Program-made: the position numbers and the translations under genes
Assembly: GCA_947463915.1 (NCBI GenBank)
Contig: CANHVO010000031.1
Location: 1-32,527 of the forward strand
Source: Planctomycetaceae bacterium
Lineage (GTDB): Bacteria > Planctomycetota > Planctomycetia > Pirellulales > Pirellulaceae
Direction: 5' to 3'
DNA: 32,527 nt
The notes under the pieces: generated by a model
Database searches by the model: none
The model's input: the letters and a program-made list of their open reading frames with translations, nothing else
What the model was told of the DNA's origin: nothing
Shown here: piece after piece, positions 4,907 through 30,909 of the stretch
Position numbering within the stretch: position 1 is the stretch's first letter
Layout of the letters: every line of letters starts with the position of its first letter

Positions 4907-5295
4907 GGTAGGACCTTGGTTGGTTAACGATGCACAGGCCTTGCAAGGCTGGGCCTCGGATAATGCGGATAATGAGGCGGGGCGTTATGCGGCAGGACAT
5001 TCCATGATAGCAACTCGGCATGCCTAAGTCATCTGGCTTTGGTCGCGGCTCATTTTCGGAGAGGCTTTTCTGTAGCGAAAGTCGTCAAGACTTTCGACTG
5101 CATTGCGTAATCCACCGAAACTCTTGACGAGTTTCGCTACAAAATGCTTCACGGCGTTGCCAAAAAGGGGCGGGGGCAAAGTCGATAAGATGACGTTGAT
5201 GACGAGGCTAACACCGTACGGCTAAATTGTTGATTTCCCCAAACGACTCGTGCCGACTTGCGTAGAACGCATAGCCTCGCAAAAACCGCACAGGT
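4907..5295. other. intergenic region with dispersed repeat copy 1
   Basis: No gene is visible in these 389 bases between two minus-strand genes. The part next to the DUF1592 start (4907-5040) should contain that operon's promoter. It also carries a direct repeat ggataatg ggataatg-like pair near 4957-4975. Bases 5071-5158 are a copy of the dispersed hairpin repeat described separately. A 13-base string (acaccgtacggct, 5211-5223) recurs at 6920-6932. Confidence 0.6.
5071..5158 (+). repeat. dispersed double-hairpin repeat, copy 1
   Basis: The core 5071-5141 has two hairpins facing each other: cgaaagtc-gtcaa-gactttcg and cgaaactc-ttgac-gagtttcg. Together they form a 27-bp imperfect palindrome around an 18-base spacer. 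The right flank aaaatgcttcacggcg matches copy 2. The matching left arm is missing, so this copy looks truncated on that side. The arrangement resembles paired REP sequences (BIME). Confidence 0.75.
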
Positions 5296-7640: not shown

Positions 7641-7767
7641 ACGCTATGAAGCATTTCCCGCTGCTTAAAACAGGCTTTTGTGTAGCGAAAGTCGTCAAGA
7701 CTTTCGGCTGTATCGCCTAAACCACCGAAACTCTTGACGAGTTTCGCTACAAAATGCTTCACAGCGT
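7641..7767 (+). repeat. dispersed double-hairpin repeat, copy 2 (full length)
   Basis: The core 7681-7751 is nearly identical to copy 1. Outer arms acgctatgaagcattt (7641-7656) and aaatgcttcacagcgt (7752-7767) pair with one mismatch. The right arm abuts the core and the left arm is 24 bases away. The element sits between the DinB-like gene and the glycosyltransferase stop codon. Confidence 0.75.
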
Positions 7768-14116: not shown

Positions 14117-14141
14117 GCCGATCATGGAAAAGTAGCGTAAC

Positions 14142-14189
14142 TCGATGGTTTCGAAGGTCGATGGCTTCGAATCTCGATGGTTTCGAAAC
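14142..14189. repeat. 16-bp tandem repeat, three units
   Basis: The motif tcgatggYttcgaa starts at 14142, 14158 and 14174, an exact period of 16. Each unit contains the 6-base palindrome ttcgaa. The last unit runs into the split dispersed-repeat copy. The role is unknown; it could be a protein-binding array or slippage product. Confidence 0.65.
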
Positions 14190-14366
14190 TCGTCAAGGCG
14201 AGCGACGGGCGAGAGCAAACGACAATCCGTAGCTGGATTCGCCAGAATTCAGGACGTTCTGAATTCTGGCGAATCCAGCTACGGTAGTTTTCCGCCTGCC
14301 GCTTGCCCAAGAGTTTCAGAGGTATTGAGGAAATCGCCGAAAGTATTGACGAGTTTCGCTACGGGT
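14184..14366. repeat. dispersed double-hairpin repeat, copy 4, interrupted
   Basis: Bases 14184-14196 (cgaaactcgtcaa) match the start of the core in the copy-3 orientation. Bases 14308-14366 match the rest: caagagtttc, an 18-base spacer, then gccgaaagt-ttgacga-tttcgctac with two differences. Removing 14197-14307 restores a continuous hairpin and the normal spacer length of 18. Confidence 0.65.
14197..14307. mobile_element. 111-bp MITE-like palindromic element
   Basis: The centre is a perfect 26-bp stem (14227-14252 / 14259-14284) with a 6-base loop. The ends are 15-bp imperfect inverted repeats (ggcgagcgacgggcg 14197-14211; cgcctgccgcttgcc 14293-14307, three mismatches). It lies inside dispersed-repeat copy 4, with caa (or caag) on both sides as a likely target duplication. 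It has no coding capacity, so it would need a transposase elsewhere. Confidence 0.6.
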
Positions 14367-14566
14367 AAAAATTGGGTTTCGCTGTTGAAGAGAAACCCCT
14401 GGGCGAACGGCGGCAATGTTCCACTCGCGATACCGAGCTGGCAGACTGGCACGCCAAAGATTCTCTCCTCTTGCTCACACGGCGCTGTTGCGACTGGGTA
14501 TAGTACGAATACCAATATCCTTTGTTCGTATCAACCGTTTTCGCAAAAGGCTAAGGAGGTCCTACT

Positions 14567-14869
14567 TTGGGTGACAAGATCACGCTTCGCTCCCTGTTTT
14601 TTGTGATGATCGTATGCGCCATTCTTCTGATGGTGGTACGACTGGCGGTTCTCAATCAGGGGCAAAACATTTGGGCCGGGGTCGCTGTCATGGTCCTTGT
14701 TCCTGTTGTTACGTTTGGCTTGTTTGGGCTCGCGTTTGCAATGCTTCTACCTTTTGGGATCATCGCAGCTATGACTCGGGAGTCTGTTGCACCAGGCACG
14801 AGTCCTTTTGCTGAGGATAGATTGCCGGACAAACAAATCGATGTCTTAGATCCGGAGCGAGCGAACTAG
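14567..14869 (+). CDS. small membrane protein
   Basis: This is a 100-residue protein with two predicted hydrophobic regions (about 9-29 and 36-69) and a short soluble, acidic C-terminal tail (70-100). The start is TTG 14567, chosen because a full aaggaggt ribosome site (14553-14560) ends six bases before it. That is the best Shine-Dalgarno sequence I noticed in the window. The nearby GTG at 14571 is out of frame. I do not recognise the family. It lies 82 bases upstream of the first ABC ATPase on the same strand and may belong to that operon as an accessory subunit. Confidence 0.7.
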   Translation: MGDKITLRSLFFVMIVCAILLMVVRLAVLNQGQNIWAGVAVMVLVPVVTFGLFGLAFAMLLPFGIIAAMTRESVAPGTSPFAEDRLPDKQIDVLDPERAN

Positions 14870-26546: not shown

Positions 26547-26561
26547 AAACCTGTCCCCTAG

Positions 26562-26615
26562 CACGACGCGCAAGCTAGTGAATTGGATAGCGAATTCACT
26601 AGCTTGCGCGTCGTG
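26562..26615. terminator. strong hairpin between convergent genes
   Basis: A perfect 23-bp inverted repeat (26562-26584 / 26593-26615) has an 8-base loop and two or three more base pairs beyond a G-T wobble. It lies between the desaturase stop (26546) and the convergent permease stop (26650). It may end transcription from both sides, but there is no clear T-run, so it could equally be a dispersed palindromic repeat. Confidence 0.5.
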
Positions 26616-26649
26616 TTAAGCTGCTTTTCATACAGCCGCCCGCCTAAAC

Positions 26650-30547: not shown

Positions 30548-30707
30548 CAAGCCTGTTGGTGTTCCGCCAAGTGTCACTATGGCGATCACTTTAGGCGAGC
30601 GGCAGCATGAAAAACACCTTATCACGACGCGGCACGGCCCCCTCGCTCATGCTTCGGGTTGGGATTGAATCGATAGCCAGCTCGCCCCACAGACAAATTC
30701 CGAAATC

Positions 30708-30909
30708 GAATGCAAGAGCCGTGAAACGCAACGCTGTTTCGCATTTTGTAGCGAAACTCGTCAAGAGTTTCGGTGGTTTATGCAATGCAGCCGAAAGTCT
30801 TGACGACTTTCGCTACAGAAAAGCCCAATTGACATTGAGCAGAATGCGAAACAGCGTTGCGTGAAACGGCGCCACCTCACTGTGGCGCCGTTTCACGGCT
30901 CTTGCATTC
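30708..30909. repeat. outer inverted repeat around repeat copy 3
   Basis: Twenty-base perfect arms (gaatgcaagagccgtgaaac at 30708-30727 and its complement at 30890-30909) enclose copy 3. Inside the right side is another perfect 15-bp hairpin (gtgaaacggcgccac 30861-30875 / 30882-30896). Together they could form a branched cruciform or RNA structure. Confidence 0.7.
30730..30857 (-). repeat. dispersed double-hairpin repeat, copy 3 (full length, reverse)
   Basis: Core 30747-30817 is the reverse complement of copies 1 and 2, with few differences. The outer arms aacgctgtttcgcatt (30730-30745) and aatgcgaaacagcgtt (30843-30858) pair perfectly. Their middle (ttc/gaa) is opposite to copy 2 (gaa/ttc), yet the pairing is kept. 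Confidence 0.75.

Follow-up and report, generated by a model that had tools for sequence, protein, structure and literature searches.

How did a 111-bp palindrome come to lie inside the hairpin of a second dispersed repeat, and what is it made of? The question arises at positions 14197–14307 of a 32,527-nt stretch of contig from a Planctomycetaceae bacterium, which in its whole length is called the window here. The genome to which it belongs, G000, comprises 7.6 Mb in 618 contigs and is 99% complete. The insertion, first noted in an initial annotation made from the letters alone, is confirmed by our analysis, with corrections. We read the segment, with a probability of roughly 0.86, as a non-autonomous MITE of the ISAzo13 family whose centre is an exchangeable, REPIN-like GTAG-tagged REP doublet.

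The MITE is complete (14197–14307, plus strand, as are all its parts) and combines ISAzo13-type ends with a core termed REP doublet A. The terminal inverted repeats each measure about 25 bp, the left one at 14197–14221 and the right one, in reverse orientation, at 14283–14307; both are delimited by the consensus of 52 core-A elements and by ISAzo13 remnants with similar, 25-bp ends. The left end is separated from the core by 7 bp (14222–14228) that read ACAATCC here and ACGATTC in the consensus, and that are missing from the core-B consensus. The core itself (14229–14282) is a 54-bp inverted pair running from GTAG to CTAC, delimited by doublets that stand bare, between unrelated flanks, elsewhere in the Planctomycetota. 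Direct reading agrees with other copies in the same genome, which set the ends of the element as GGCGAGCG...CGCTCGCC. A perfect 26-bp central stem, reported in the initial annotation, is seen again by direct reading and in comparisons across the window, with a 6-nt loop. The terminal repeats are imperfect, as had been stated, and are better taken as about 25 bp than as 15 bp, given the related insertion-sequence remnants. The target-site duplication is CAA, read directly at 14194–14196 and 14308–14310, and its 3-bp size is set by other copies; the 4-bp form CAAG, offered as an option, falls away, its fourth base being the first G of the element itself. A 153-aa open reading frame at 14145–14606 spans the element and finds no match in Pfam, and Rfam matched nothing within the window.

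The target of the MITE was the 5-nt loop of one hairpin in a GTAG-tagged REP doublet of another kind, REP C, which is an inverted pair of GTAG...CTAC hairpins. The left arm of the interrupted hairpin, CGAAACTCGT, lies at 14184–14193 with its GTAG tag at 14132, and the remainder of the doublet, recognised by repeat comparison across the window, lies at 14308–14362 and ends in CTAC (both plus strand). When the two parts are joined, they align without internal gaps to the three intact window copies, with identities over 65 bases of 51 (5072–5140, plus strand), 52 (7682–7750, plus strand) and 52 (30748–30816, minus strand). Excision thus restores the host hairpin repeat, as had been claimed, and the piece to be removed is 114 bases, the element and one CAA, not 111. 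The left half of the host doublet is not clean, as the GTAG at 14132 is followed by a tandem repeat. This 16-bp repeat, present in three units at 14136–14192 (plus strand; found by repeat comparison within the window), expands the left REP C half beside the insertion. The intact doublet at 30748 is nested in larger inverted repeats at 30708–30909 of the window.

The sister genome, G023, is contiguous at this locus and is without some 417 bp spanning the tandem repeat, the host doublet and the MITE; the gap being larger than the element, it is not a clean empty site for the window copy. Because the missing segment holds both repeats, G023 cannot separate the two events, and the order of insertion is therefore read from the footprint itself. 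The footprint makes this REP doublet older than this MITE copy; the relative age that had been drawn for two repeat families holds for these two copies and not for the families generally.

Many copies with the same ends are found in G000. When 40 copies were scored from 287 first-look candidates, 34 matched 100 or more of the 111 bases. Thirty were viewed with their flanks: most end in GGCGAGCG...CGCTCGCC, some have one end decayed, and many are bounded by 3-bp duplications, most often TTA or TAA. At one mismatch or fewer, the end motif plus TWA target, TWAGGCGAGCGGCRG, gave 234 matches in the genome, 100 of them listed singly, against 7 for the reversed pattern. Pairing was measured in a 1.63-Mb sample, 21% of the genome and not random, which consists of the window, the first 38–40 kb of contigs C1–C20 and the first 20 kb of C21–C30 and C32–C61. 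Here, ends at one mismatch or fewer and 105–117 bp apart formed 12 inward pairs and no outward pair; no excess of inward pairs was seen in this sample at 24–70 bp, the coreless range, or at insertion-sequence length. Within the window, a decayed core-B element on the plus strand (26558–26644) consists of REP doublet B (26558–26619) and a right terminal repeat to 26644, followed by TAA, with no recognisable left end. A plus-strand fragment at 30591–30631 comprises TTA, a left terminal repeat and the start of REP B (end match C31:30591–30605). An apparent 1.9-kb element on contig C427 proved to be separate MITEs instead.

Target duplications were counted in the sample and in fetched loci, most of which, beyond the sample, had been chosen for carrying these ends or cores. 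Identical 3-bp flanks occur in 34 of 78 elements of 104–118 bp (shuffled mean 14.8), and a 4-bp match in 1 of the 78. The 34 are TTA (19), TAA (9), CAA (2), TTG (2), CTA (1) and TAG (1), and the CAA of the window copy differs from the preferred TTA/TAA. Eight of the 78, likely chance pairings, have no recognised core and were dropped; the 70 that remain include all 34 with matching flanks, and the other 36 are without them. We rejected targeting of hairpin loops as a rule, since the stem at the target averages 3.24 in the 78 elements and 3.23 at 2,000 TTA/TAA control sites. With target stems no longer than in the controls, the hairpin-loop position is taken as a coincidence of the window copy. 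Another repeat lies within 40 bp of 8 of the 70 elements, compared with 97 of 2,000 TWA sites outside long open reading frames, which is a weak excess.

The arms extend to related genomes, where they are present in 9 of the 36 searched, with four reversed-control matches in all. From 70 loci in these relatives, 52 elements could be read, of which 28 have identical 3-bp flanks (shuffled mean 14.7, maximum 24 in 1,000 shuffles). Their cores are A in 5, B in 17 and D in 6 by pattern, one of the six (L391) looking like H by eye; a CCCGAAGCGTAAGCGAG-type palindrome, H, in 11; and others in 13, further GTAG...CTAC palindromes among them. In two relatives' loci (L339 and L348), ISAzo13-type ends enclose a core that is split by a nested palindrome, for a total of 202 bp; the nested element has GGCTTGTTGATTTA-type ends around GACGGACTTCCAAGTCCGTC palindromes. 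Thus same-end copies with short duplications, which the initial annotation had proposed to look for, exist in the genome and in its relatives, and the duplication is 3 bp. Together with same-end transposons in relatives whose transposase is degraded, they support the transposition footprint of a non-autonomous element that had been inferred from the window copy.

Element length is less constant than it first appears. In G000, 55 of 85 elements in the range of 70–260 bp measure 110–112 bp. Among relatives' elements in the range of 60–300 bp, 20 of 52 measure 111–113 bp, 126 and 202 bp come next with four each, and lengths run from 63 to 259 bp. The 59 of 70 that fall at 110–112 bp do so partly by construction, as that set was chosen at 104–118 bp. 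Total length peaks near 111–112 bp, other sizes occur, and the constancy is weaker than the 104–118 bp set implies.

Comparison with the sister genome bears on the age of the core combinations. Fifteen sister/own locus pairs were listed and six were aligned, and in four aligned pairs both genomes have an element with these ends and agree in core type. At one of these four, L326/L218, the A-type core is longer in the own copy; at L146/C41, core A is common to both and the ends are not clear; at L401/L038, the element is in the sister genome only. No in-place core replacement since the sister split was seen among the six aligned pairs. As all four readable orthologues keep their core type, exchange of cores is either old or rare.

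The ends point to a parent transposon. Of nine genomes tested with the PF07592 (ISAzo13) profile, five gave matches; G000 and its sister G023 gave none. Genome G009 carries an element of 1004 bp, flanked on either side by TAA, in which ISAzo13 transposase fragments lie between the ends GGCGAGCGGCGGCCTGAAAACTACC and GGCGAGCGGCAGGCTGAAGCCTACC. In genome G021, an element of 1052 bp lies between two copies of TTA; it contains a PF07592 remnant and has sequence of the right-end type at each end (GGCGATCGGCAGG...), and shorter elements so bounded occur in the same genome. The inverted repeats of the remnants in these two genomes are about 25 bp long, closely similar to the MITE ends, and accompanied by TWA duplications. 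The G009 fragment is assigned to ISAzo13 by Pfam (3.9e-30, over the cut-off) and is named ISAzo13 by NCBIfam (4.5e-24, short of the full-length cut-off, as a fragment would be); the ISAzo13 fragments also give a weaker IS630 match. In a third genome, G077, from another genus of the family, a partial ISAzo13 open reading frame is accompanied by one such end at TTA. Matching the ends to the terminal repeats of a transposase, the route suggested in the initial annotation, has led to the ISAzo13 remnants of G009 and G021, which are bounded by them. The MITE most likely represents the two ends of an ISAzo13-type element.

No copy found to combine these ends with transposase sequence is whole: each is broken or runs off the end of its contig. 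The longest two PF07592 open reading frames found, of 341 aa (G022) and 454 aa (G021), are without these ends. For these two reasons, activity and the identity of the exact parent are matters of inference. When 117 genomes were searched with the G009 element, with up to four candidates scored per genome, the matches were mostly to a dispersed repeat inside the element, and among the matches listed its transposase part was matched in a few genomes. Locus L356 concerns this repeat: positions 54–156 of the 1004-bp element are a dispersed repeat common to many genomes of the family, lying inside the ISAzo13 remnant. As G000 has no transposase match, the MITE looks orphaned and has probably lost its mobility in this genome, a result that bears on present activity and not on where the element came from.

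An exact scan of named genomes for REP A returned at least 62 stretches, all of them by title in planctomycetes, to which we take their genera to belong; the exact 54-base core pattern had no match in named genomes. Around bare REP A loci, no column before GTAG exceeds 0.25 bit (36 loci), and beyond the far end none exceeds 0.42 bit (30 loci); the 36 come from the 62 listed, the 26 left out being 10 from the sister assembly and 16 in which another arm set is present. REP A forms 94 units in the own-genome sample, some overlapping, with both ends at 23, one at 26 and neither at 45. REP B forms 37 (6, 12 and 19, respectively) and REP D nine (2, 1 and 6). The other repeats stand mostly or wholly bare, with one both-ended unit among 71 of REP C and the remaining 70 without ends, and none of the 13 units of repeat E having either end. 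Random positions gave both ends in 20 and one end in 78 of 5,000 cases. Consensus sequences of A, B and D were built from 52, 11 and 7 elements. The arms of the three are related, with scores reached by 0–3 of 300 shuffles, and their cores are unrelated, with scores reached by 62, 298 and 299 of 300. Inside elements, core B mostly starts with TAG, without the leading G.

Two other arm sets were found. The second, with ends TTTTGAAGTTGCAC, comprises 11 elements in the own-genome sample (on C2, C10, C15, C16, C20, C55, C58 and C61); nine are 124 bp long and contain a REP A variant, ten lie within recognisable REP B, the one on C10 being doubtful, and five show a perfect 8-bp duplication by eye. 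The third, CTAGTGGTCTGTCA...TGACAGACCACTAG, encloses REP doublet A at 15 loci by pattern in genomes of other planctomycetes (L110, L115, L116, L120, L132 and others; assemblies CALHPU, CAKZVF and Mariniblastus sp. JALZWN). Doublet A is thus enclosed by three kinds of arms, and several doublets share a single arm set. The palindrome thus occurs with end points other than those of the MITE, both bare and in two other arm sets, an outcome that the initial annotation had set against its own reading. The MITE stands nonetheless, and these copies show that the central palindrome is a module in its own right, which the MITE carries.

The simplest competing account is that of an ordinary ISAzo13 MITE, its palindrome being its own sequence and bare REP A being broken MITEs. 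About half of the 94 core-A units in the own-genome sample have at least one recognisable end, which is what this account would lead one to find. It is nevertheless improbable, as REP A with unrelated flanks occurs in many Planctomycetota, the same arms enclose unrelated cores, and REP A is present in two other arm sets. Genome G036 is a case in point, with core-only REP A matches and 0 arm hits. Shared arms, unrelated cores and the presence of doublet A in other arm sets lead us instead to a MITE of ISAzo13 type whose REP core is exchangeable. The palindromic core does not consist of insertion-sequence DNA; it is a GTAG-tagged REP doublet, widespread in Planctomycetota. Core A is called a REP from its GTAG tag, its doublet form and its distribution; the 14 Y1/RAYT-like loci of the genome have no close REP A, the best having 6–7 mismatches. 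REP C was found at two of these 14 loci. At one (L088, on C180), an intact REP C doublet lies about 0.3 kb from the Y1/RAYT-like gene; at the other (L085, on C100), the gene lies between inverted GTAGCCATGGGCGCGAGCCCATGG hairpins and a REP C doublet. Divergence among 36 full-length A elements is 4.3% in cores and 12.5% in arms, a comparison biased by arm subfamilies and by selection on core match.

Other enzymes could be proposed for the ends. PIF/Harbinger and IS5-type transposons prefer TTA/TAA and duplicate 3 bp, and a Tourist-like MITE of such a transposon would agree with both the target preference and the duplication seen here. However, PF13359 (DDE_Tnp_4) is unmatched in the genome, neither of its two PF01609 (DDE_Tnp_1) genes has a flanking pair of these ends, and ISAzo13 remnants with such ends do exist. 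We rejected an IS5/PIF parent on the two gene results, and consider this origin slightly less probable than the ordinary MITE.

Marginally less probable again is that the arms are terminal repeats of a tyrosine (HuH) transposase system, a TIRtron or TIRYT, in which a RAYT-like enzyme moves the whole unit. The GTAG cores and 14 Y1 transposase matches in the genome, two of them below the family cut-off, speak for it. The 3-bp target duplications speak against it, since HuH transposases would not be expected to make them. None of the 14 Y1 loci has a flanking pair of these ends, the nearest approach being L088, where a single end lies some 0.8 kb away from the match to the gene, and repeats flanking RAYT genes were rejected as the source on this count; such ends are, moreover, carried by ISAzo13 remnants. 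Families of terminal inverted repeats tied to tyrosine transposases have been described (PMC3733652). A chance or assembly artefact, in which two unrelated palindromes adjoin in a fragmented metagenome assembly, has a negligible probability even for a genome in 618 contigs, as dozens of same-end copies lie on different contigs and in other genomes and orthologous copies are common to the separately assembled sister.

For the ISAzo13-family MITE with an exchangeable core, the following course of events may be proposed. A full insertion sequence, of which none was found in G000, would have provided an ISAzo13-type DDE transposase in trans; this enzyme would have cut the element at its ends and joined it to a 3-bp staggered cut, which for the window copy would have been CAA in the REP hairpin loop. 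The REP doublet may have been captured between two insertion-sequence ends several times, a step that we propose with low confidence. The doublet might have inserted into a small insertion sequence reduced by internal deletion, or entered during the repair of one, and each combination of ends and core could then have been amplified by the DDE transposase; our confidence in these steps is equally low. A broader proposal, which we put forward as speculative and probably too strong, is that ISAzo13 ends serve as a reusable chassis in which different REP doublets have time and again taken the place of the palindromic core, with total length tending to remain near 112 bp. The DDE transposase would act on the ends and a RAYT-type enzyme on the core, each contributing to the spread of the other's repeats. 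The two other arm sets with REP A suggest that the same happened with other Planctomycetota transposons.

Several known systems share parts of this arrangement. The ISAzo13 family (PF07592, NF033519) has the 25-bp ends and TWA 3-bp duplications around transposase remnants in related genomes, whereas the window element is without transposase sequence, has only the terminal repeats and holds a foreign REP doublet in its middle. The 54-bp core A and the 69-bp host repeat resemble REPINs and BIMEs built from GTAG REPs in being inverted, GTAG-tagged hairpin doublets (PMC3116915, PMC3733652); unlike these, the doublet here is also a passenger between DDE transposon ends. GTAG repeats occur in the PVC superphylum, and R. 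baltica has many tyrosine transposase genes with flanking repeats (PMC3733652). The closest description found concerns 'double inverted repeats' in Pseudomonas putida and P. fluorescens, in which degenerate GTAG-1 REP units are joined to unrelated stem-loops in hundreds of copies (PMC3733652). Those repeats, unlike the elements described here, flank tyrosine transposase genes, and the text of that paper available to us reports no DDE ends, target duplication or exchange of several REPs (PMC3733652). MITEPsy1 is similar in its size of about 100 bp, in ends that almost match those of an insertion sequence, in its short target duplication and in the movement in trans envisaged for it (PMC3189936). 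Here, by contrast, no parent was found in the genome, the core is interchangeable and the duplication is 3 bp rather than the 4 bp of MITEPsy1. In one review (PMC10969869), REP and ISAzo13 appear as whole words only in the references. An ISAzo13-type MITE is thus a known kind of element; for the variant with exchangeable REP cores, we found no description in the open PMC literature, subscription journals being outside the scope of the search.

These elements link two classes of small repeat that are usually treated apart, REPs and REPINs, which are tied to HuH enzymes, and MITEs, which are tied to DDE transposases. One class can be the passenger of the other, and in more than one combination. 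If cores have been exchanged with length roughly kept, the series of elements with the same ends and different cores would offer a natural way to ask what the middle of a very short transposon needs. If cores have been exchanged, the elements could also serve to trace how REP families reach new genomic sites.
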